Positions 1 to 62,450 of a stretch of DNA of 64,000 nucleotides are shown here, one piece after another. The DNA comes from Steinernema hermaphroditum (lineage: Eukaryota > Nematoda > Chromadorea > Rhabditida > Steinernematidae): the NCBI GenBank assembly GCA_030435675.1, contig CM059622.1, forward strand, positions 15,500,001-15,564,000, written 5' to 3'. The notes beneath the pieces are model-generated. The model was given only the letters and a program-made list of their open reading frames with translations, did no database searches and was not told the DNA's origin. Within the stretch, counting starts at the first letter, position 1, and each line of letters begins with the position of its first letter. Position numbers and translations under genes: made by a program.

Positions 1-895
1 TCGGACGAGATGACGAAGTCGAGGATCGCCCAACTGACGACGGGAACACGGGCCTGGTAGAGTTGCCGATAGCGGTCGCCGGCTCCTCGGCGGTAGAGTC
101 GGATGTGGCCATCTGGAAAGGGATCGTTTGATAAGGAGGAGTGGGATAGATCTGTTTTGGTCTTTATGGGAACATTAGACACTTACCTTGACTAGCTGTG
201 ATGATCGAGTTGCCCCTGTCAACAAACTGGGACACGAAGGTCTTCGACTTGACGCTTCCCACCACCTTCCTCGTGTTCGGAATGTACGAGTTGACTACGG
301 TGGCGCGCTGTCCTAGCGAGAAAGGCTTTCCAAGATTGAGTTCTCGTCTGAGAATCATGTCGGGTAGGAAGCCTCTGTGTGTGGTACTGAAATGGTCCTC
401 GAGGAAGTGGATCGCCCCGTTTCGGGTCTCTAAATCATGCATGAAGTGATCGTAGCTCTAAAAATGAATAATTTTTGCGAATTGAAAGAATATCCCTACT
501 TTTCTCAGTTCCTCATCGCCAGTCACATATCTAAATCGAGTCGGTCGACGTTCTCGTTCATGATACCGATGCATTCCTGAACTCATCGGACCTTCTGGAT
601 GCCCCTCGCTTTGGCCTTCTTCAGAGCTTTGCGCGCTTCTCGGATAGTGCAACGCTTCACGGAGGTCGTCGGCGTTAGAGGCGATGTCGATAACGCGATT
701 CTCGACCAGCTCCCTCAAGATTGAGGCGATCTGACTGTGGCCTGGGCGTGCGGATCGGATTCTCTGATTCGGAAATGCCGCTTCGAGGGCGCGCTCCTGC
801 GCTACGATGTTGGCTGCGGAGCTGAGGACGTCTTCGGGACTGTCGGCTGCGGAGGCGGCGTCGTCGGAGGAGTGGCGCGATTCGCCTAAACCCAT
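1..895 (-). CDS. wdr-23: DCAF11/WDR23-like CUL4-DDB1 adaptor, N-terminal part (cut by window edge)
   Basis: WD40 substrate receptor of CUL4-DDB1 ubiquitin ligases; in worms WDR-23 restrains the stress regulator SKN-1 (established knowledge). Exons read on the minus strand: 895-500, 457-187 and 112 running off the left edge; both introns are GT-AG and phases join (0, then 1). Exon 1 is an acidic, Ser/Ala-rich leader. Exon 2 holds the conserved pre-WD40 segment (FSLGQRATVVNSYIPN, then KTFVSQF). Exon 3 continues with GHIRLYRRGAGDRYRQ and WAILDFVIS, matching the first WD repeat of human DCAF11 in order and spacing. The ATG at 895 is preceded by a 3' splice site (TTGTTTCAG ending at 912), so the transcript probably receives a spliced leader or a short upstream exon. 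The family call is firm; the exact start is less sure. Confidence 0.88.
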
Positions 896-9454: not shown

Positions 9455-9526
9455 TTCCCATGCCGGGAATCGAACCCGGGCCGCGTGGGTGAAAGCCACG
9501 AATCCTAACCACTAGACCACATGGGA
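9455..9526 (-). tRNA. tRNA-Glu (TTC)
   Basis: Same 72-nt sequence and fold as the gene at 2018-2089: acceptor TCCCATG/CATGGGA and anticodon TTC. An oligo-T terminator lies on the minus strand beyond the 3' end. Confidence 0.97.
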
Positions 9527-9859
9527 GGCTGTCTGTTAAGTCGTCGATAGCTAGTTGTATCACATCGGACACAGAAACTGGCTTTGTTCTTCAGTGAAAA
9601 AAATTTATGTGACATGATTCATAAAGCTCATAACGGTTTCACATTTCCACTTTATGACTTTTAACGATCACGCTCCCCAAAAAAATGAACGACATGGGCT
9701 GAGAAGTGTTCTTGGAACGGAAAGTGCAAGCACGCCCTGTGGCTATTTTGATCGTTGGGTGCAGGAACGAAGTATGAGAAATCAATTTTCAAGCATTCTG
9801 AATACAAAAGAAGACTAGGAATGTGATTACAAAACGAATTAAAAAAAAATAAAAAAGAT

Positions 9860-9863
9860 CGCT

Positions 9864-9930
<67 letters not shown>

Positions 9931-9933
9931 AGC
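9860..9933 (-). tRNA. tRNA-Asn (GTT)
   Basis: Same as the gene at 2250-2323. The A-rich 3' flank (AAAAAA then GATCGCTCCC on the plus strand) is also shared with that copy, pointing to duplication of the Glu-Asn pair. Confidence 0.97.
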
Positions 9934-12900
9934 ATATCTACCTCAACGCTGCGATGATCTATTATGACGAGTACTGTGTGTTCTCCTCATCTCCACCACG
10001 CGCTTTGTCTTCAGCGAATCATCGCCGTCTCACCGGCGTTTTTGCGGCCTTCTGACGCTCCACTTGATCGTCGTTCCAATCACCGCGGCGGCGACGAAAA
10101 TAGCGAACGAAGGCGGCGACGCGAACGGTTCGATTGATTTTCGCGATGTTGCGTGTGCTATGACGCCTTCCCGCAGCGCCTAATGCCGTACAATAATCGA
10201 CGATTTCGCGTGGTTTCACCGCCATCATCGCCATTAAAGCCCCTAGCCGATCCCTTCAGAAGCGTTCGGGCTTCGATGGGATGCTCCGCGGTGTAATTAA
10301 TCGTGGCGACGGCGTCGGCAACGTAGCCGGGGGGCAATATCCCGGCTAATCTGCCCCGACGGAGCCGTCCGAGTAGCCAGGGCAGTTAGTCCTTGCAGTG
10401 GTCTTCGCATCGTCGTCGTCGTCCGAGCGGTTTAGAGCGCCGCCGCGCAACGCGCATAATTTATCGGCTTATTGATTGCATCGAAGGCGAAAACGAGGGA
10501 AGATGGGCGCCTTCGTCGGCTTTGTTCTTCTCCGCCGGAGAATGTTTGCCTCTCCGGGGCGCTAGATGAGTCATCTGTGGAGCGCTACGGCCTCCATTTT
10601 CGGGATTCCCATTTTGCGTCAATCGCTAAGTCCGCTGACTAAGACGATGTTTTCCACTGAACCTCGGCTATTTGTGTCCTGCACCTGTCATTCAATTAAC
10701 TCGTTTCCGATGGATGCATTAGAGTGGAAAATTGATTTTGAAGATATTTTCGTCTTTACTGCGAACACACTGTGTTTTCCTGAATGTGGTTAGATCTAGC
10801 CTTCTGTGAATGCTGGATTCTTTAAATTATCCGGGCGTTCCACATGCTATTCGTGCCCAATTAATTCCCTTCCAATGAGTTTGTTGGAGCGCAGTTTTAT
10901 GGAGATCGATTTTCGAGGCTATTTTCGGCTTAGCGCAGCACTGGAAGCCTGTTTTGGATGTTGATTGACCGAATTGTGGCGGATCGTCGGCTGGAAAACT
11001 ATCGATTTTCTATGAGCGATCGTATCTATCCCTTCATGACCGAACCTGTGATATTTACTGAATGACTTTCTGCGTGAACATTTGATCTTCTACTGTTTGG
11101 ACTTGGGTTTGTATTTGGCTACATTTTCCGTCGAATTGTCGTGAACCCCAGGCTAGATTTTCGTCACTTGTCCTCTGTTTTTATGTCCCTGGCTACACTC
11201 CCTAAAGGGAAGGCTTCCAAGTGTCGGATGCGGATCGGACTGGGCTTTAATTTAGCTATATTTAGCTTAACAGAAGACAGGTCAGGCATGTTCTTGGATG
11301 CTATCTCGTTCGCTGTACTTTATGTGCCTTCCTTTGTATTAAAATGACCGTGCACCCGTGCCCTGACTCGTGCCATGAACCTAACAATGGAAGGCCTTAT
11401 TGGAAGGAAGGCCCCTAGTTGTCCTTATTGTAGCTCTGCACATCATCACACCACACCACCAAAGTTCAACCCGACCTATGGCAATTGGATGTTCCATATC
11501 ATTTGATATACACCCATTGCTCTGACCATCTGCCGCGCCTTACATCACTACATGAAGGTCCAGGCTCGCTTATCAGGGTCACTTTCCCCGGCTGATAAGC
11601 TATTTCTGGGTCTTCCGCCCTGAGTGACCATGTCCGTTGTTTACCACATTCGAATCGGGTCCAAAAGACAAGCGCCTTTGTATTCAACTCTCATAAGTAG
11701 CCCTATTCATGCTCTTTTTCTGCAGAAAGCACTGCTAATTAGCTTTTCTGATTTCGACGGCTTTTTTATTCGAAAATAGACTGAGAACACATCTCTTCCT
11801 ATAGCCACTAAAGTCATCATTTCGCTCGGACGCTAATTAGTTTCCAGCCACTTCCCTTATTACTTTCTTGGAATCGCCGTCGCCTGAAGGCGAATGCCCT
11901 TTCGAGTCGCATCGATCCGCTTTTTTTTGGCCGTCGGCCCCGTGGATCGCTTTATGACCGCCACTTTCGCTCCTATTCTTCTTCTCCTGCTGCCACTTCC
12001 TGAGTCAAGAGTGCTCGTATGCATTCCCCGATGGATGGGCGCGACGCGTTTTTCGTGAATTTCCGAAAAGAGTCAGTCTGTCCTAAGCTGACTAAGTGGG
12101 GCCGTGCACTTCTGGGCTTAGAGTGTTTCTAATCGGATTTCAAAAGTGGAGTTCAGCTTTGGAGTGGGATACTTGTCAAATCAGTCTTGGTGTTAAAAAC
12201 AGGCATGTTGAAGCTCTGTTTTCCAAGAATGCGCAAACATTAACGTCATGTAATGCCTGATGACTAGACTACGATAATCCTTCCGCTTTCAACATTCTTG
12301 GCATTCTGGATAACAAGAAGCGTGTGACCTTTGTGGATTAGGATTAGCACAGGGATGGGTTTGGACTTGAGAATAAAGGAAATGACGAGATCGGAGTGAG
12401 AAAACAGGTCAGACGAAGGAACTTTCTTCAGATCGAGTTGAAAATTGGCACACAGGTAGGGAATGCATTATGAATGTTAATCCCTAAGGTCCGTCGGATT
12501 ATACGCACAACTGAGCATGTAAACATTCTTCAAAAGTTACATTCAAATGGCTATAGCCAACTTTGCCAATATGGGTGGTGCTGCCTTAGTGGTCGAACTG
12601 GGTACTGTCTTGGCTCCCATTTTCCAGGTCCGGGTTCGAATCCCATCCCAGCCATGTGTTTTACTGTTATCCGTTTCGCGTGCTGAGATGATCACCAAAG
12701 GCACACAAGGTTGACCCTTCTGATCATAAAACTTTCGTGGTAGGTTTGACAGTATTGCCCATATTGGTTAGGACGTGACTTTCGGCGTCTGTTTACATGG
12801 TTTATAGGAATAGAATACTACAAAAAACGAGACCCTATTCACAAAGGTAGCAGACGAGGAAGTAGGTCATATGCGTAGGTTTGGGGCGTGGGATTAATGC

Positions 12901-52335: not shown

Positions 52336-55300
52336 CTAGATGAAGGACAATACTGCGTACATGTCACATACGTTGTCGGTTACGGTAACAGGCGAATTGA
52401 AGATGATGCCCACACGCACTTTGTCGTTGTATCGGAGACCGTGGAGCAGCTTCGGTGTTAGTAGGAAGTACTGCGTTTTCGCCAGCGAGCCTTCGGAGGC
52501 CAGGATGTCCAGCATCATCTCGAACACCTTCCGCTCATTCCGGGGATCCATGCCTTGATTGATCTCGTCCACGCATCTGAACGGCACCGGACAGAGCTCC
52601 TGGAGCGCCAACATGTAGAGCATTGTGCTCACGCTCCGTTCGCCACCACTCTGTGATTTGTCGTCGAGTCGCCGGAGAGACGCATTTTCGCGGAACTTCA
52701 CGTAGATGTCGATGCCGTACTCTTCCATGTGGTACTAAAAGGAAACTGGTAATGAGTGGTCATCGGATGGAGGCTGACTTCATTTTCTGGCACGCAGAGC
52801 TTCACTTCACCGATGCAATTCAGCTGCGAGAAGAACTTGGTGAAGTTGTCACTGATCTTCTCTACCAGATGCTTCACCGGTTCTCTCCATGCGTCGAGTT
52901 TTTCCGACAGCTGTGCTTCTGAGATCGTCAGCTGAAAACAAACGTTAAATTAGGTTACAAATGTCGTGCAGATTAATTATCTTGTTTTATTAAGTTGTTT
53001 AAAACTTACTTTCTCACGCAACTCGCGAATGCTACCATCTATTTTCTCCTTCTCCTCCAGCGACTTCGTATGCCGCTCCACGTCCGTTGCACTTCCCGTC
53101 ACTCCGGCGACATTATTCCGCGCGATCTCCTGATCTATTCGGTTCTGCAGCGCGGTCACATCCCGTTCCACCCCCTCCTTCTCGAAATATTCTGTCAGCT
53201 CTTTCAGCTTCCTTTTATGACTGCCGTTCAGTTCTGATGGGTCGACGGACGGGATGTGACAGATGTCGGAGAAGCGCGCGTTGCTCCGCTGGAACGCTTC
53301 CTCCGCTTGACGGAATTCCCTGGCGAGATACGCGATCTCCTCCCGGATCGTTTCCATCTCCAGCTGCACTGCCGTTTCCTTCGTCCGTTGTTCATCCAAA
53401 TGGCTTTCTGCTTCGTGACACGATACTGCTGCCTCGCCGAGTTCTATTATCTTCTTACTCAATGCTTCCTAAACCACAGCATATTATTAGAAGTGAAGAA
53501 GTAAAGAGTCCCACCAATATCTGCAATCGCTTTTCCCCCCTCTGCAGCGCCTTTCTCTTGCACATTTCATTCCGTTCCTCTAGGGCCTTTTGCGCGTGCT
53601 CCACCTCAGGTCTCACGTCCAGGTGACAGTCGAGCTTGACGCATTCTGCTTCGAGTTTATGTTTCAAAGTCCTGAGCTCCGTTTGTTTTCGTTTCTCGAC
53701 TTCCCTTTCCTCAAAGTAACGGCGCTGTTTCTCGGTGTACGCGTTTATCCGCTCCTCAACGGCACCTCTCTCCTGTTCGAACTTAATACGAACACGTTAG
53801 ATTCATAGCATTCCAATAATTCTCTCACTTTTTCCTTCAATTCGCGGTACTCTCTCTTGACGTCCGTGAGGTCAGTTTCACTGGGCTGGAAGTGCTCGTT
53901 GACGAAGTAGCTTTGATCGCGGAGTTGGTCGATGCGGATGATGGGATCGCCAGTAAACGGCGAATACTTCGTGTGACACCTTATTTTCGGTGTGAAAATC
54001 AATGGATGCGCGTCACCGATCTTAGCAGCCACTTCTTCTAACTTATGGTTCAAACGATCCGTACCGATAGGGATCTGATGGATCTGGAAATCGCAAAAAT
54101 TATAGCCTATTTTGGACGAAAGAAACTTGCACTGCTGTTAGCCATTAGGAAAGCCATGACCACGTCAGGAGCCTCGATCATTTCACTGAGAAAGTTGGTG
54201 AAGCCCATGTTACGCATGCTGCTCGAGATCTGGGGACGAACGCCTTCGTACTGCCGCCTCTGTTCTTCCTTCATGATGGTCGTGTTGATCTTGAATCGTT
54301 GGGAGTGCATCAGTCGCTCGTCATCTTCACATCCAAAGATGAACATGGCCATGTCACGGATGGAAACCGTGTTACACAAGTACCGCGGAGCGGATCTGTC
54401 CTTCAGGAAGATATCAAGGAAGGGAATGTAGACGGGGTACTTGAAGCTCCCCAGATTGTTCTTATAGAATTGGTACGCCTGGAGGATTTGTAGATGCCCC
54501 ACGCTCCGCTCCGACTGCAGGTGCTCGATTTTGCTCCGGAGCGCTCTCTTGCTCTGTTCGCCTTGGCGAATGATATCTGAAATTTTTAAATGCCTTAAAA
54601 TAGAATGGACCGGTGTAGCTTACATTGCTCTTTGTTCTTAACCTGCTCGTACTGTCTGCGGATCTCTTCCTTCAACGCTACCACCCTATCCTTCTCCTCG
54701 CTCAGGGCCTGATCTTCCTGTGAGAAGTCCTTCGGCACATATGCATCGTTCACCTCCTTCCAGTTTTGCCGAAATCCAGCGATCCTTTCCTCGAGCACTG
54801 CCCGTTCATTTTCCCAATCATCGAATTTCGTTTTCTGGATTTCGAAGTTCTTCTGATTTTCAGCAATCTGAACCACCGAGTTAATTTATCATTCTCTTCA
54901 CGAGAAACGTCACCTCATCACCCAATTTGCGCTCTCTCAGCAAATCATATAGCTCCTCTTCCATGTCATTCATCTTTTCTTTCTGCAAATCATCCTTCAT
55001 AATAAGAAACTTTCGGTGAGGCCCACCTCCTTGCCGAACTGGAAGCGACTCTGTCGGAGTTTCTGATCGAGCGTAGCAATCGTGCGTTTCACCTTTTCCT
55101 CATCCTTCATCTTCTTCTGCAGCGTGTTCTCCTTGTCCTTCTTCGTGGACACCTCATTCTGATAGTGCTCGAAGGCGGCCTGCGCTTCCAAGTATGCGAC
55201 GCACTCTTTCAGCTTGTTGATGTGCCTATTGCGAAGCTCCTGCTCGTGAAAGGCTTGTACTCGAGGCTCCAAATCGCTGATCGTCTTTTTTATTCGTTCC

Positions 55301-56178
55301 AGTTCGGCTTCTAGCTTCCGCTTCTCCTGCTCCACGTCGTTTCCCTTCTTGCTCTCTCCACAGAGCTCCGTGTACTTCCCGTACAGACCGACTCCGAGGG
55401 CTTTCTGTGTGTTCTCAAGCAGCTTTTGCGAGTTCTGCTCCGAGAAACTTTTCACCTTATCCTGGGCGAGGAACGTGCACGGGTTGTCTATCTAAATGGC
55501 GTTTTCATATTATTGCACGGGGCCAGCGAATGAATTACTTGAATATTGAATTCTTTAATGACTTCATTTACTACTTTGTGAGTGACCTTTCTGCCGTCGA
55601 TGAAATATTCCGTTGTGCAGTCAGCCTTGCTGCCGGTTCCTTTTCGCAATACAATTCGGAATTTCTTTAGCTTTGACTCATTGTGATCGCGTCTAAACAA
55701 TTGGAGCAGTTAGTCATATCCAGTACAACCGCTCAACAAATGCGATAGAATGGAAACGTTGGGATTTCCGAATATTCCAGAAAGCAATCAATCCTTAGCT
55801 CACTTACATAGTAACTTCCACCCATCCCTCCTGCTTCCCGTGCTTCACGTAATCGTCCATGCGATCAGAACGGCCTAGTAGAGCCGGCTTCCCTCCGACA
55901 GCCAAGCAGATACCACAGAGAACGGAACTCTTGCCTAAAAACCGAATGAAGCCTCCGATTCGATCGTAAACCACGTACCAGTTCCATTGGAGCCGATGAT
56001 AACATTCAGATTAGGACTTGGATAGTAGCAGCCGTGATCGTATGTTCTGAAATTGAGCAGTGAAGAAGATCGACAGAAAAGGAGTCGAAACTCACAGAAA
56101 GTTAGTCAATTCTACTTTGGTTATTGAACCGACGGCGTAGTCGTTTATCGAGTAGCGCATTTCGTCGTCTTCGTCCAT
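52336..56178 (-). CDS. smc-5: SMC5, SMC5/6 complex ATPase, complete
   Basis: SMC5 pairs with SMC6 in a DNA-repair and chromosome-maintenance ring. Exons, minus strand: 56178-56096, 56046-55979, 55934-55808, 55692-55539, 55491-55027, 54982-54914, 54867-54624, 54576-54131, 54083-53829, 53781-53515, 53468-53010, 52931-52779, 52734-52336; 3189 nt, 1062 aa (human 1101). N-terminal head has Walker A GSNGTGKSS (about 46-53) and DNPCTFLAQDKVKSFSE. Two Glu/Lys-rich coiled-coil arms flank the hinge (about 403-640). The C-terminal head has signature SGGERS (about 959-964) and Walker B PFRCVDEINQGMD. Intron 8 (54130-54084) has a GC donor, AGT|GCAAGT. An acceptor TTTTCAG ends 19 nt before the ATG, fitting SL trans-splicing. 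The last 20 residues after FNSP could be intron read-through, so the exact C-terminus is uncertain. Confidence 0.95.
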
Positions 56179-56416
56179 TCTGATAGGGGACTTTGCTCTG
56201 AAAACGTGGACGGATAATTAACAACAATGGTTGGCATTTCACAGCACACGAAATACGGTAGATTTGCGCGAAATTTGGGATGTTTGGCGCCGAAACAAAA
56301 AGAGATAAAATCGAAAAAACACCACGAACGTGCGAATTTCATAATTTCAAATTTCGCGCCCAACATCCACACGCGTCTGCTAGTAGATACCGATTTTGAA
56401 CAGCCGTCAGACATGC

Positions 56417-56488
56417 TCCCATGTGGTCTAGTGGTTAGGATTCGTGGCTTTCACCCACGCGGCCCGGGTTCGATTCCCGGCATGGGAA
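56417..56488 (+). tRNA. tRNA-Glu (TTC)
   Basis: Same gene sequence as those at 2018 and 9455, here on the plus strand, upstream of the divergent SMC5 start; acceptor TCCCATG/CATGGGA, anticodon TTC, discriminator A. Confidence 0.97.
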
Positions 56489-56646
56489 AAACTTTTTGTT
56501 CTTAACTTCTATGTAATTCGCCTCGCCTACTTGGGTCTTGGGTCTGATTTGGCTGATTTCCTTTGCGTGGTCCCGCGCAAAGGAAATCGCAAAGGAAATC
56601 AGCCGAAGGCTCAAGAGTGGATGAAATGCTTTCAGTTTCAGTAACT

Positions 56647-56711
56647 GTTACGTCTTGCCGTAACACTGTTTGAGGGAGCGTAGGACCTCTACCTGGTGGG
56701 AGACCTCAAAC
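56647..56711 (-). repeat. Double-hairpin repeat, copy 1 (SL-like body without SL1 leader)
   Basis: Two adjacent inverted repeats: GTTACG...CGTAAC (56647-56664) and GTTTGAGG...CCTCAAAC (56668-56711). Nearly identical to 58421-58485. On the minus strand it reads GTTTGAG|GTCTCCCACC; the 15 bases before that do not match SL1. Confidence 0.8.
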
Positions 56712-56859
56712 GTTTGCCGTCGGGGAGTCTTTCTTGTGTCCTATCGAACGTTAAACTAACTCAAACGGCGGAAATCGCTAAAATAGATCTCCGATTTTAC
56801 AGTAGATTACGGTATCGCATACAATGTACGCACCTTCAGAAACATTTCCCACCAAGCAT

Positions 56860-56957
56860 ATAAGCATCTCCAAAGAGACGCAGTTCCAAAATTTATCTCG
56901 CCACTTCCATTTGAAAGAGCGGATCTAATGTTTACCTCAAACTTGGGTAATTAAACC
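56860..56957 (-). ncRNA. sls-1: SL1 spliced-leader RNA gene A
   Basis: Minus strand. The 22-nt leader (56957-56936) begins GGTTTAATTACCC and ends AAGTTTGAG, identical to the nematode SL1. It is followed by the donor GTAAAC, which pairs with the leader start as in stem-loop I. An Sm site AAATTTTGG is at 56894-56886 and a 3' hairpin GCGTCTC-TTTG-GAGATGC at 56881-56864. The RNA donates its first 22 nt to pre-mRNAs by trans-splicing. The upstream block (GTCGCTCCCCGCACAAGAAC, then CTCCACACC) matches genes B and C and is the likely proximal promoter. Confidence 0.95.
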
Positions 56958-57148
56958 GACGACGATGTGGTGTGGAGGTTCTTGTGCGGGGAGCGACTGT
57001 CTCGCTGTAGCACTGTGAGGTGCCTACTCCAGAGAAGCAGAGAAATCTTTCGCACTTTGGACAGTGATCGCTTTCACGTGTACACGCATAAATGTTTCTA
57101 CACGACACCCCGAAGTCTTATCTTACACTCACACAGCTTCAAAGTCTT

Positions 57149-57246
57149 ATAAGCATCTCCGAAGAGACGCAGTTCCAAAATTTCTCTCGCCACTTCCATT
57201 TGAAAGAGCGGATCTAATGTTTACCTCAAACTTGGGTAATTAAACC
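57149..57246 (-). ncRNA. sls-1: SL1 spliced-leader RNA gene B
   Basis: Minus strand, leader 57246-57225 identical to SL1, donor GTAAAC, Sm site AAATTTTGG (57183-57175), 3' hairpin GCGTCTCTTCGGAGATGC (57170-57153). Its upstream sequence is more diverged than those of A and C but keeps the CACAAGA-CCTCCACAC block. It is transcribed divergently from gene C, forming a 415-bp palindrome with it (57146-57560). Confidence 0.95.
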
Positions 57247-57459
57247 GGCGATGGTGCCGTGTGGAGGCTCTTGTGTGGTGAGCGACCATTCCGCTGCAGT
57301 GACGCGAGCTCTGCGGCTCCCTCTATGTGTACACGTGAAAGCGACGCGATCACTCTCCGCAGCGCGAGAGATTTCTCTGTTTCTCTGGAGTAGGCACCTC
57401 ACAGTGCTACAGCGAGACGGTCGCTCCCCGCACAAGAACCTCCACACCACATCGTCGTC
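57247..57459. promoter_or_regulatory. Bidirectional promoter between SL1 genes B and C
   Basis: 213 bp between divergent leaders. Both sides carry GGTCGCTC...CACAAGA.CCTCCACAC about 10-42 nt upstream of the leader (57418-57450 for C, mirrored at about 57256-57288 for B), the position expected for a snRNA-type proximal element. The middle is unique, with CACGTG at about 57337. Confidence 0.65.
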
Positions 57460-57557
57460 GGTTTAATTACCCAAGTTTGAGGTAAACATTAGATCCGCTC
57501 TTTCAAATGGAAGTGGCGAGATAAATTTTGGAACTGCGTCTCTTCGGAGATGCTTAT
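57460..57557 (+). ncRNA. sls-1: SL1 spliced-leader RNA gene C
   Basis: Plus strand, leader 57460-57481 identical to SL1, donor GTAAAC at 57482, Sm site AAATTTTGG (57523-57531), 3' hairpin GCGTCTCTTCGGAGATGC (57536-57553). Gene A and its upstream about 150 bp match gene C and its promoter closely, so A is a near-copy of C. Confidence 0.96.
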
Positions 57558-57779
57558 AAGCTTCGAAAACTATCGAAAGAGTTGACTCTTTTCGAAATGG
57601 CTGTTTTCTGAGGGCTCAATTTCTCGTTTCCGCCATTTGTGGACTAGGTATTACATGGTTTCTTTAGTCGACAGTGTCTGGACATTGCTCTGGATACATC
57701 TGCAAGCTTCACGTCATAACTCGAGAGGCGCCGAATCCAGTGCGAACACACATCGGATTAGACGATGCGATAGTTCTCA

Positions 57780-58310
57780 TATATGAAAACCTCTTGTATA
57801 TTTACACGATTTATCTTCCCGAATCAACGGCTTACGCCGTGCAGGACGTCTCATATATGCACAAAGAAGAACATAGTCACACCGTGGTCGCTGATTTTCT
57901 TCTGATTTCGGTGGAGCAAACGAATCCGAATAGAATGCAGCGCTCCCATTAGTTTGCGCGGGCATCGAAGTCGTGAAGAGCTGATTCCGGAAGTGGAATA
58001 GCGGTGGAGTAGAGCCAACGGAGCGGAGAGTCATCTTCGGTTCGGCTGGCGGCGCGGACTTCGGAGTTGCAACGCTTCTTCGGCTTCTCTGGCGGCGCGG
58101 GTAGAGTCGGGCGGTCGTGACGGGCTTTTTGGCGAGACGGTGGAACTACGGCTCCCTGGTGTTCCAGGCCTTCTGGGAGCCGGGGCGATCATTGCGCCAA
58201 CAACGACGGCCGAGAATGACCGCTCACTCAACTCATTCGGCTCAGACAGCCTCAGAGAGAGCGAGAGCGAGTGGACGACCCGACCGATCGCTGGGGGCAC
58301 AAATGAAAGA
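57780..58310 (-). repeat. Interspersed repeat copy 2
   Basis: Minus-strand counterpart of 41413-41890 (shared AGCGATCGGTCGGGTC, ATGATCGCCCCG and others). More complete here, which suggests the copy inside the foldback element was captured or inserted there. No conserved ORF. Confidence 0.75.
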
Positions 58311-58420
58311 CTCTTGTATATTACCTGCTTCAATTCAACATAATGCAACTTGGGTCCTACAACTGTAGTTGTGACGAATTTGAATGTGTTTGGGAGCTGG
58401 ACCTACTTGACCTCCACCAT

Positions 58421-58500
58421 GTTACGTCTTGTCGTAACAATAGTTTGAGGGAGCTAGGAGCTCTACCTGGTGGGAGACCTCAAACTTGGGTAATTAAACC
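58421..58500 (-). pseudogene. SL1 leader fused to a different body (locus D)
   Basis: Minus strand: 58500-58479 is the exact 22-nt SL1 leader, but it continues GTCTCCCACCAGGTAGAGCT instead of GTAAAC. The body is the double-hairpin repeat seen at 56647-56711. I see no Sm site of the AATTTTGG type, and the upstream flank lacks the promoter block shared by genes A-C. Probably a chimera or pseudogene; a divergent SL RNA class is the alternative. Confidence 0.6.
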
Positions 58501-58859
58501 TTTATGTACAAATAACACGTAACAAATAAAGGCGCGAACACGTAAGCACATGAACGCGCTAGTCAACACAAACATAAGGCTGGCGCGATATGAGTGGAAG
58601 AGACAGAGAGCGGTCGCTAGCCTAGACAGCATAGACAACACGCAGACAAGTACGGTGACCAATCGCGGTGAGACGCAGACGAACATTGAACAAGAGAATC
58701 AATGCGTGTGGTCAGCACGCAACACACCAGTTTTGAAGTTTATGTGCATAAAAATAAAGCTCCGTTATTGTATCCTCTTGCATGTTCATTGAAACAAGCT
58801 TATACGGCGTCTTTCTTTCGTAGTACCGCTAGGGGAACTAGCGTCTTTATGGATCCCAT

Positions 58860-58932
58860 GGCCTCGTGGCGCAATGGATAACGCGTCGGTCTACGGAACC
58901 GAAGATTGCAGGTTCGAATCCTGCCGAGGTCG
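58860..58932 (+). tRNA. tRNA-Arg (ACG)
   Basis: Acceptor GGCCTCG pairs with CGAGGTC, anticodon loop CTACGGA (ACG), T-loop GGTTCGAATCC, discriminator G. Intact version of the copy at 8771. Confidence 0.97.
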
Positions 58933-58939
58933 AAATTTT

Positions 58940-59590
58940 TCCAATTCTTATGTTTTTCCCGAAAGGGTGCAGTTTTTCAAATGGATAGAGAGACGAACAG
59001 CTACAAGCGGAGATCAGTCTGTAATGCTGTACACCCATATGAATGTCTGCATGACTACAAAAGGTGCAGACAGTCTAGTAGACCTAGTAGTGGCGGACCA
59101 CGCGACAGACAGTTTGTCTAAACGTTCCGTCCGACGACTTCCCTATTCCCCTCCGCCCCTTTCCACTGTATTTGATAAAACTTCTTTAATTACATTTTTC
59201 ATCGAAAACAGTACGTACAACAAAATCAACACATGCTCACAATCACAAAATAATAAAGATTAGAGGGGAGGAGCCTCGAGAGGAAACGAAGTGTGGAGAC
59301 ATGCGGGCCACGAGCGGCTCCTCACCTGCGAGTATCAAGAGGTGTTTCGGTGGCAACATGCAGCCCAAGGAGTAGGGAGCAACCGGGCGATTGAGAAGAA
59401 CAGATAAATTAATTTGAGCGCGAAAGGAAGAATCAATCGCTGAATTAAATATAAATATCACAATAGTACCTGTAATGGAGAGGACAATCGGGCCAACAAT
59501 CGAGTGGTGTGAATGAGAGGGGATTAATAATAGCAAAGAGAGACGTAACAACCGAAAATACATTAATCGCCTAAAGGTATCTTCTAGTGG
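58940..59590. other. Downstream flank of the BAF250-type gene
   Basis: No supported gene; AT-rich stretches at 59.4-59.58 kb are the probable 3' UTR of the minus-strand gene ending at 59595. Confidence 0.5.
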
Positions 59591-59594
59591 GAGA

Positions 59595-62450
59595 CTACGC
59601 GACAGCGGCCATCGAGTTCTTCGTCGTCGCGGTGTGGTCGACTTCTATGGAACCGTTGAGCTTCTTGCCGTTCGTTCCGTTCTCGAGACGGCGTCGCTTC
59701 TTGCAGTCGCCATTACTCCCGTTCTCCATGACCACGGGCGTGGCGGGGCGCTTCTTCACCTTTGGCGCTCGGAAGAGACTGTCGTCCGACGGTACTGGCG
59801 ATCCTTCGGACACGGGAGTACCGTTCGTCAGCTTCTCTTCCGGCTTGGGCGATTCGGCTGTCTTCTGTTCCGGGGATGATGTGCTAGCCGCGGAGGAAGC
59901 ATCATCGTTGGTGGCCGTGGTCGCCGCGGTGGGCGAGGAATCATCTGCCTGTTCCTCTTCTTTGGGCTTCTCGGCCTCTTCCTTCTGTTGTAGGTCAACG
60001 GCCGTCTCCTCTTCGGCACGAGGCACCTCGTAAAGTGTCTCTACAATCATCTGAGCCACTCGGGAGTCCATCTGAAGAATAGTAAATCAGTAAAAGCTTT
60101 GATGATGCGACGATCTTACCAGCTGGGACATGGAGAGAGCGAGAAGACGTTGCTGTTGCTTGATGAAGAGTTTTCGACACTCCTCGACACGACAGAAGTT
60201 GTGAAGAAGAGTGGCAGCACGGCGAAGCATGCCCACCGATGTTCCCATCAGCTCAGGACTGTCACGTAGGGCCGTCATTCCCTGCTGAGTGACCACGGAG
60301 TGCATGGCCGTATCGGTGAATTCCAGGAAGTACACGATGTGAGCGAGCGCCGGAGTGTGCAGGCATGTGAAGTAGACGGCTTCGTCGGAGATGTTGCAAA
60401 TGGCGTTCAGAATGACGAGAGAGAATTCTCGGTAGTGAACATCTTCTGACATGGCCAGCCAGCTGGCCAGTCTTTCCAGGAACGCTTCAAACCTGTTCCA
60501 AGGTCCGGTGGCAACGAGCAGGTCGACGTTTGCTTCGATTACGGACATCTTGCAGAGAATCTCAAGAGCATAAGCCCTAAAAAGTTTGCGTTGAAACGAT
60601 ATTTCTCATGGATATATACCTTGGAGGCAACACGCCTGGTAGGACAAGCGGGTCCTTCGCGGTAATGCTCTGCGTCACCGTCCAATGAATCAGTCCATCG
60701 AAGATGGGCCAGGATACTTCGCTGTCGTGCTCAGCCAATTTGAGCTAAAGATGCATAGCGATGAAATCTAGCATTGAAGAGTTGAGCTACCTGTACACTG
60801 AGATGGCAAAGAATTACGAATGCGTCGTCGCGGAGTTGATTCGCCAAGTCATCCATGATCTTGTTCGCGTCGTCTTCGAAGTCGACACACTTGGAAATGA
60901 CACCAGAGCCATTAGTCGCTTGACCATTGGACGAGTCCAGCTGTTCGTCTTCCGACTCCTTCAGCTTTGCATAAGCGGCTTCGGCACGTTCTCGACGTTT
61001 CGTGGCGAATGACACTTCGTCGCAGCGGAGCTTCAAGAAACGGCCGAGGAGGTAAAGGAGGCAGGCGTGCCGTGCCATCGCGCCATCGTTGCCCGGGAGG
61101 AAAGAGTAGCCACGCAGAATATTCGAGAAAGCCAGACACCGGTTAACCTGCTTCTGAAGTGCTTCGAACTTGGTGGTCAGTCCTGTGGCCTTGACAGAGA
61201 CGTGCTCGGTCCACTCAGCAGGCTTGATGTTCTGTAGAGCTGGTTCTTCAACGGACTCTTCAACTGGCTCCTTCTTGACTTCAATATCAGGTTTCTGATC
61301 GACTGGAGCGGCTTCTTTCTTCACACCGGGTACTATAGGCTCCTTCATCAAACAGCACTCGAGCTTGTAAGCTTTCTCCAACTTCTCCGCGAGACGTGCG
61401 CCTAGGCCAGCATCGAGAATGTTGTCCTTCGCACTGTCTCTGCCCTCGTTTTCCTTGTCGTTGGGCTCAGATCCAGCTGGGCGATAGCGGCGAAGCTCGA
61501 GCGGCAAATCGACCTTTTTCTTCTCAACACGAACTCCACGTCCGAACCGTGACACTTTGTTGAAATCGGATGAGTTGCGCGAGTTGACGAGCTGCTTCAT
61601 GCCCGTTTTCTCGTCTTCGGTTGACCAGAAACCGTCATCGTCAATGGTAGGAATTGCTGCGAACGGCGACTTCGCATCCTTCTGGAATATTCTCAATTAG
61701 AGGGTCACAAGCGGTGGAAATATACCTTGAAAACTTCAGGAAATAGGAGGGTTACGGAAGCACGCAAGTGCTCAACGATCAAATTGAGCAGATCGGGCTG
61801 TTGATGGATCGAGAAAGCACCAATCGCTCCAGGATTCGAATCGTCGTAGAGAATGACGTTCAGAGCGTTCACTGCCCAAACAACTTCTGTGTCCAGAGCG
61901 CTGCGAAGGGCCATCATGACGCGCTTAGGAACTGCTCCACACAAATCCTTCGACAGCACCTTAAACGAAAAGAATAAAAACCGTCGTGATCACTAAATTT
62001 TACCTTTCTGCGACGTCTAAGCAGCGGCTGCGTGGCTTCGATGGTTCCAGGAGGAAACAACGACTGCTGCTGGGACTGTTGCTGCTGAGCAGAGCTCGCC
62101 GACATCAGCGCCGCTGTGGTGGCCGGAGCATGGTGGTGCGAGGCGGGCGTCGGCATCGCCGGATTCTGGCTCCGCGACGACATCATCGACGGCGTCGGGG
62201 TGGGCTGCGGAACGGCGCCTTGAGGAGGTCCTGGCTGAGGTGGCTGCGCTCCATACTGCAAATAGAACGATGGCTGAAGAGATGGGCCTGGATGCGGGAT
62301 CATTGCTTGGGGTGGCATCATGAAGATGTATTGGGGATGCTGCCATGGCTGGGGAGAGACGCCGCGCATGGGTTGCTGGAAGTGGAATACCGGACTTGGG
62401 ACTGAGACCAGGCCCCGGGGCTCCTGCTTGCTCTTCTTGCGAGGTTTCAT
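59595..62450 (-). CDS. ARID1/BAF250-type SWI/SNF subunit, BAF250_C part, no ARID domain
   Basis: ARID1 proteins (LET-526 in worms) anchor the BAF chromatin-remodelling complex; the C-terminal BAF250_C repeats bind the core. Exons on the minus strand: 62450-62004, 61959-61726, 61681-60791, 60744-60620, 60576-60120, 60071-59595; 2631 nt, 876 aa. Pro/Gln-rich start (MKPRKKSKQEPRG), then LLRRRRKVLSKD and RVMMALRSALDTEVVWAVNA, LNVILYDD, an acidic/basic linker, LRGYSFLPGNDGAMARHACL, SWPIFDGLIHWTV and VDLLVATGPWNR, in the order of human ARID1A. The last exon is acidic with basic nuclear-signal-like runs (KVKKRP, CKKRRR). A TGA in frame just before the ATG at 62450 suggests a start here, but the Pro/Gln exons at 62.8-63.8 kb may be spliced on, for example at CAG|GAG near 62424. 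No ARID domain is encoded in either part. Confidence 0.9.

Follow-up and report, generated by a model that had tools for sequence, protein, structure and literature searches.

Divergent SL1 RNA genes without 5S linkage in Steinernema hermaphroditum, and a promoter box held in common with U1 and SmY genes

The window analysed here is a 64-kb stretch (C2:15500001-15564000) with a GC content of 0.41-0.55; the assembly it comes from comprises 60 contigs and totals 90.6 Mb. It contains four exact copies of the 22-nt SL1 leader, three of which begin complete SL1 RNA genes, designated A, B and C (Table 1). The 22-mer was absent from 100 shuffles of the window, with up to three mismatches tolerated. 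In each of the three genes the leader is followed by a GTAAAC donor, a second hairpin, an Sm-type site (AAATTTTGGAAC) and a 7-bp 3' hairpin, which bears out the initial annotation of three complete SL1 genes in 0.7 kb. The predicted folds of A, B and C all contain three stem-loops with the Sm-type site between the second and third, at a predicted folding energy of -27.4 kcal/mol (z -2.3 to -2.6). The Rfam SL1 model (RF00198) aligned to the three genes over model positions 1-103 with scores of 34.8-35.8 bits (E 0.0015-0.0027), all below its gathering score of 75 bits, which is a database cut-off and no anatomical feature. Five SL1 copies from two other loci of the same genome scored 29.2-36.2 bits. 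Therefore, the model fits this species poorly, and the shortfall is not peculiar to the window cluster.

Table 1. Positions of the SL1 RNA genes, their upstream elements and a leader-bearing repeat in the window
Feature	Position	Strand	Details
SL1 RNA gene A	56860-56957	-	leader 56936-56957; GTAAAC donor; Sm-type site and hairpin start 56875-56894; promoter type I
SL1 RNA gene B	57149-57246	-	leader 57225-57246; Sm-type site and hairpin start 57164-57183; promoter type II, without box1
SL1 RNA gene C	57460-57557	+	leader 57460-57481; Sm-type site and hairpin start 57523-57542; promoter type I
Divergent spacer B-C	57247-57459	.	213 bp; promoter region at each end, box2 and box1 between
box1 (TTTCTCTGYTTCTCTGGAGT) at -88 of gene C	57372-57391	+
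box1 at -88 of gene A	57026-57045	-
box2 with CACGTG, gene B's side of spacer	57319-57341	-	similar place in several other 215-219 bp spacers
Conserved -56 to -36 region, gene C	57404-57424	+	position-wise conservation
Conserved -56 to -36 region, gene B	57282-57302	-	position-wise conservation
Conserved -56 to -36 region, gene A	56993-57013	-	position-wise conservation
LTR-like repeat with exact SL1 leader	58420-58524		22-mer 58479-58500(-); TGTTACG...CGTAACA ends

The neighbours of the cluster are a tRNA-Glu gene (56417-56488) and a tRNA-Arg gene (58859-58933); elsewhere in the window tRNA-Glu stands beside tRNA-Asn twice (2018-2324 and 9455-9934). The cluster had been placed between SMC5 and a BAF250-type gene. 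The latter is supported by BAF250_C exons inside 60087-61696 (122.5 and 75.9 bits), but the exons on the opposite side include one with a weak SMC_N match (28.8 bits, cut-off 40), which does not establish the SMC5 assignment. The reported absence of 5S rRNA near the cluster was confirmed: no match reached the gathering score in the 64-kb window, and nothing was found up to E=10 in 54000-61000. Among the matches listed, the sole 5S match on C2 lies at 17529907, ~2 Mb from the window. A, B and C are SL1 RNA genes without 5S linkage at this locus.

Genes A and C are identical in 223 of 237 aligned columns, the upstream CACGTG included, in agreement with the earlier view of A as a duplicate of C. 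Because this identity extends beyond the promoter, the best reading is that A arose from C as an inverted copy that includes the spacer half next to C; A itself has no partner. B and C had been described as mirror images around a 213-bp shared promoter. The length of the spacer was correct, and the RNA parts differ at 1 position, but the near-mirror is confined to the RNA part; the upstream regions are of two types. We replace the idea that B and C are served by one promoter with two promoter regions that have shared boxes in the middle.

The fourth exact 22-mer, omitted from the initial annotation, is part of an LTR-like repeat and lacks the remainder of an SL1 gene; a partial relative of this repeat lies at 56646-56711. 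Genome-wide, 101 leader sites are directly preceded by AAA, one of them also being a GTAAAT site. Among 100 of these as listed, 20 neighbour pairs lie within 10 kb, 18 of them on the same strand, and the interior piece between one such pair encodes RVT_1, RNase H and integrase H2C2 domains. The eight AAA-preceded sites that were read (L002-L008 and the window copy) all run on as repeats. We therefore reject the reading of all 265 exact 22-mers in the genome as genes. In Brugia, PAO elements with SL1 at their flanks have been described (PMC7181701).

In the genome census only the best candidates were scored, so that its counts are lower bounds. The leader is joined to GTAAAC at 118 sites, of which 43 form a tandem array of almost identical copies on C4 (loci L059 and L060); the remainder are dispersed, mostly on C2. 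Outside the C4 array, 74 such sites among the matches listed and one gene with a GTAATC donor make up 75 dispersed SL1 genes. Two further SL1 genes, L077:8557-8654 and L077:9903-10000, have a leader ending in GAA, not GAG, before GTAAAC, and each is divergent to a standard SL1 gene. The leader is joined to GTAAAT at 37 sites, 34 of them on C7. At least 43 matches to 5S rRNA were found, 36 of them on C7 by manual count of the listing. At a separate locus, L079 (C3:4002800-4003800), an SL RNA gene whose leader is altered stands close to a 5S gene on the same strand, and the two may be what is left of a 5S-SL1 repeat. Many SL1 genes of this nematode lie away from 5S, but the initial annotation was too narrow, as 34 more SL1 copies lie with 5S in the 45S rDNA of C7.

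The rDNA units on C7 are ~9.9 kb long. In locus L061 (C7:8000-17999), half of whose sequence is N, the order is 5S(+), U2(-), SL1(+), SL1(+), 5S(+), 18S(-), with no 28S in the readable half. Both SL1 copies of the unit have a GTAAAT donor, and U2 and the first SL1 are divergent, 191 bp apart (796 and 988). U2 matches are found on C7 in 19 of 20 cases; the remaining one is weak (49.9 bits). As the C7 unit carries 5S and SL1, the 5S linkage of SL1 persists in this genome within the 45S repeat. 5S and SL1 share a repeat, as in the C. elegans type, in the C7 copies but not in the window cluster. Vahidi et al. in 1988 reportedly described 5S genes within the 45S rDNA repeats of Meloidogyne arenaria. 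The 5S-like sequence in that rDNA unit resembles the C7 arrangement, to which SL1 and U2 are added in S. hermaphroditum.

The arrangement of B and C recurs across the genome. Orientation was analysed for the 75 dispersed SL1, at least 42 U1 and 33 U5 genes, leaving out the C7 copies and the C4 array, whose neighbours are on the same strand and would raise the same-strand count. Neighbours no more than 400 bp apart formed 56 pairs, 35 of them head-to-head; none of 10,000 orientation shuffles reached 35 (maximum 26), a comparison that exaggerates significance because copied pairs are non-independent events. The 35 divergent pairs comprise 19 SL1/SL1, 11 SL1/U1, 4 U1/U1 and 1 U5/U5. Extending the distance to 600 bp gave 60 pairs: 35 divergent, 11 convergent and 14 tandem. 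Among the C2 SL1 genes, 47 of 65 belong to a divergent pair and 18 are unpaired, four of which were afterwards found to have a partner with a variant leader. Manual inspection added six further pairs when SL genes whose leader is altered or whose donor is GTAAAT were included. All of the U1 matches (at least 42) are on C2.

Other snRNA genes are clustered in their own ways. U1 and U5 often lie in tandem on C2 (8 of the 14 tandem neighbour pairs within 600 bp). For U4, 17 of 18 matches fall within one 0.26-Mb stretch (C3:4.46-4.72 Mb), with two divergent pairs identified by hand (gaps of 266 and 299 bp). For U6, 17 of 21 matches fall within a 1-Mb stretch (C3:14.6-15.6 Mb), where two convergent pairs were identified by hand (gaps of 148 and 370 bp).

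Alignment of 58 dispersed SL1 genes showed conservation of positions -66 to -1. Mean pairwise identity (ungapped) was 93.5% in the RNA and 70.8% in -66 to -1, and 30.4% both in -130 to -89 and in positions 98-140. Within the conserved segment, the region from -56 to -36 is presumed from its position alone to be PSE-like, and we assume that the promoter names PSE and SNAPc apply to this genome. Farther upstream lies a 20-bp element, box1, at -88 in SL1 and -87 in U1 genes. With up to 4 mismatches, box1 was present in 42 of 67 dispersed genes, among them 9 of 9 U1 genes; all 42 C4 array copies measured have the box1 position with 5-6 mismatches. It occurs in 24 of 27 divergent spacers examined, the three without it being the 10.9-Mb subgroup, and shuffled spacers never yielded box1 at under 5 mismatches. 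The element is not required everywhere, since it is absent from all three 10.9-Mb subgroup pairs and from 18 of 51 SL1 genes typed as described below. The layout is that of a bidirectional snRNA-type promoter, with divergent genes, a short spacer and elements at fixed distances. It is plausible from the sequence that the spacer drives both genes, as each of the 24 spacers outside the 10.9-Mb subgroup has box1.

Searching the genome for box1 (up to 2 mismatches) returned 68 matches, as against 1 for the backward pattern. Of the 68, 55 precede an SL1, SL1-variant or U1 gene by 70-95 bp, and in 53 of these the distance is exactly 88 bp for SL1 or a variant and 87 bp for U1. Five of the remaining 13 were inspected, and three precede one U1 and two SmY genes. 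The additional U1 is likewise on C2. SmY is a trans-splicing RNA; the two SmY genes, in L095 (C1:14069900-14070750), are convergent (231-309(+) and 538-616(-)) with box1 87 bp upstream. The other two of the five, in L065 and L067, had no Rfam match (E up to 0.1) at the expected start on that strand. Two further box1 matches lie at C1:14088999 and C1:14090678. Two U5 copies inspected by eye have a box1-like stretch at a similar place.

We compared the promoters of 51 SL1 genes (the window and L065-L078, leaving out the 10.9-Mb subgroup) by ungapped nearest relatives in -68 to -1. Type I promoters, with box1, account for 33 of the 51, and type II promoters, without it, for 18. For 48 of the 51 genes the nearest relative shared the gene's own type, a figure matched in none of 2000 label shuffles, and a gene's own partner was its nearest relative in only 1 of 32 cases. 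The typed SL1/SL1 pairs were 11 I/II, 5 I/I and no II/II. Because nearest relatives share type while partners are so rarely nearest, the pairs most likely descend from an asymmetric unit.

Spread of the pairs by a mobile element is not favoured, as mean identity is already down to ~30% directly past the RNA (98-140, ungapped). Some copies share 3' flanks: that of B is 95% like locus L066:1320 over 43 bases, and others were noted by eye. In some cases larger pieces may have been copied.

Stem pairing was assessed in 57 of 58 distinct aligned copies, leaving out L077:5141-5238, which lacks the 3' hairpin. Stem pairs changed on both sides numbered 3, compared with 0.6 in shuffles (2 of 500 shuffles had as many), and paired stem cells made up 98.9% compared with a shuffle average of 98.5%, counts that are inflated because the structure was folded from the same sequences and the copies are related. 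Slid structures gave 31-46% pairing.

Our reading, to which we assign a probability of roughly 80%, is that A, B and C are genes for the SL1 trans-splicing donor RNA, that B and C represent a single copy of a divergent small-RNA unit scattered chiefly across C2, and that A is an inverted duplicate of C. Each gene has its own conserved promoter region at -66 to -1, and the pairs examined outside the 10.9-Mb subgroup include at least one gene with box1 at about -88. Under this model RNA polymerase II, working from a SNAPc-type snRNA promoter, would read both sides. Box1, which SL1 and U1 genes share with the two SmY genes and, as judged by eye, with the two U5 copies, would be an upstream element able to serve both genes of a pair, the box1-less one included. 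The SL1 RNA so made would then give the 22-nt leader. Old copying of the asymmetric unit would have multiplied the pairs, with selection preserving RNA and promoter while the outer flanks decayed.

A serious rival, though one that we consider less probable, is that each pair consists of two independent head-to-head promoters working from their own -66 to -1 regions only, and that close packing is a by-product of unit copying and not of shared regulation. The conserved region present in each dispersed SL1 gene fits such independence, as does its retention in genes without box1, and tandem and convergent neighbours occur as well (14 and 11 of the 60 neighbour pairs within 600 bp). The presence of box1 in all 24 divergent spacers outside the 10.9-Mb subgroup argues the other way. 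Box1-less SL1 genes are also mostly paired: they make up 23 of 46 paired and 2 of 12 unpaired genes, or 17 of 40 and 1 of 11 without the 10.9-Mb subgroup, a weak difference.

It had also been suggested that an inverted cluster of this kind can spread or be homogenised by gene conversion. The divergent layout has indeed spread, but the view that conversion between inverted arms keeps B and C alike is unlikely on the evidence from the pairs. In its favour, besides the near-identity of A and C, the RNA parts of 15 SL1/SL1 pairs (one pair being dropped for an indel-bearing gene) differed by a mean of 2.27 within pairs compared with 3.45 under random pairing, with 14 of 5000 random pairings as low. 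This signal weakened to 2.21 compared with 2.60 (331 of 5000 as low) once one C1 pair was removed. In -66 to -1, within-pair differences were no lower than random (17.67 and 17.16), and the own partner, as noted, was the nearest relative once in 32. We therefore reject mirror-palindrome homogenisation as the main force for the promoters. Least probable of all is the reading of the dispersed copies as pseudogene-like relics of an ancestral array, with working SL1 RNA coming from the C4 array or the rDNA: the array copies are almost identical and some dispersed copies are damaged (L077:5141-5238, and L069:4866 with a shortened Sm-type site), but RNA identity stands at 93.5% while the flanks are at 30%, the promoter box is held at a fixed position, and the both-side stem changes, modest as they are, exceed those in shuffles. 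The C4 array or the rDNA copies could be the source of most SL1 RNA.

A broader and more tentative proposal is that SL1, U1, U5 and SmY might constitute one promoter regulon defined by box1 at about -88, largely organised in two-way units in which a gene lacking box1 leans on the box of its partner. The rDNA unit with 18S and 5S would tie U2 and a further set of SL1 genes to the nucleolus, a single repeat that would hold genes for all three polymerases together with the genome's intact U2 supply.

In C. elegans, the sls-1 genes carry the same 22-nt leader and lie in the 5S rDNA tandem array. The S. hermaphroditum genes differ from these in that the partner is SL1 or U1 and not 5S, the genes are dispersed, and a promoter box is common to U1 and SmY genes. 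C. elegans 5S and SL1 run in opposite directions, and their common promoter region is bound by ATTF-6 (PMC11822377, PMC12803116). In Oscheius tipulae, 5S and SL1 are reported as unclustered, in passages that mention neither divergent pairs nor U1 partners nor promoter boxes (PMC8022731). Neither divergence nor missing 5S linkage is therefore new when taken alone: the former is reported for C. elegans 5S and SL1, and the latter for O. tipulae. The SL2 RNA genes of C. elegans, 19 in number, are likewise dispersed (PMC1657053), but the leader differs, being SL1 in S. hermaphroditum. In the literature on SL/snRNA/rDNA linkage and divergent snRNA genes, searched in partial texts with subscription papers mostly outside its reach, we found no SL1/U1 divergent modules, no SL1 and U2 together in 45S rDNA and no box common to U1 and SmY.

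In this genome SL1 genes are divided between the C4 tandem array, the rDNA units and dispersed pairs, some of them with U1, and an SL1 gene of the window type manages without a 5S neighbour. Because the 3' hairpin differs among copies, they could be distinguished in RNA reads. Box1 is a practical tool for finding other small RNA genes, as it did here for one U1 and two SmY genes, and the arrangement offers a natural test of the co-regulation of SL1, U1 and SmY.
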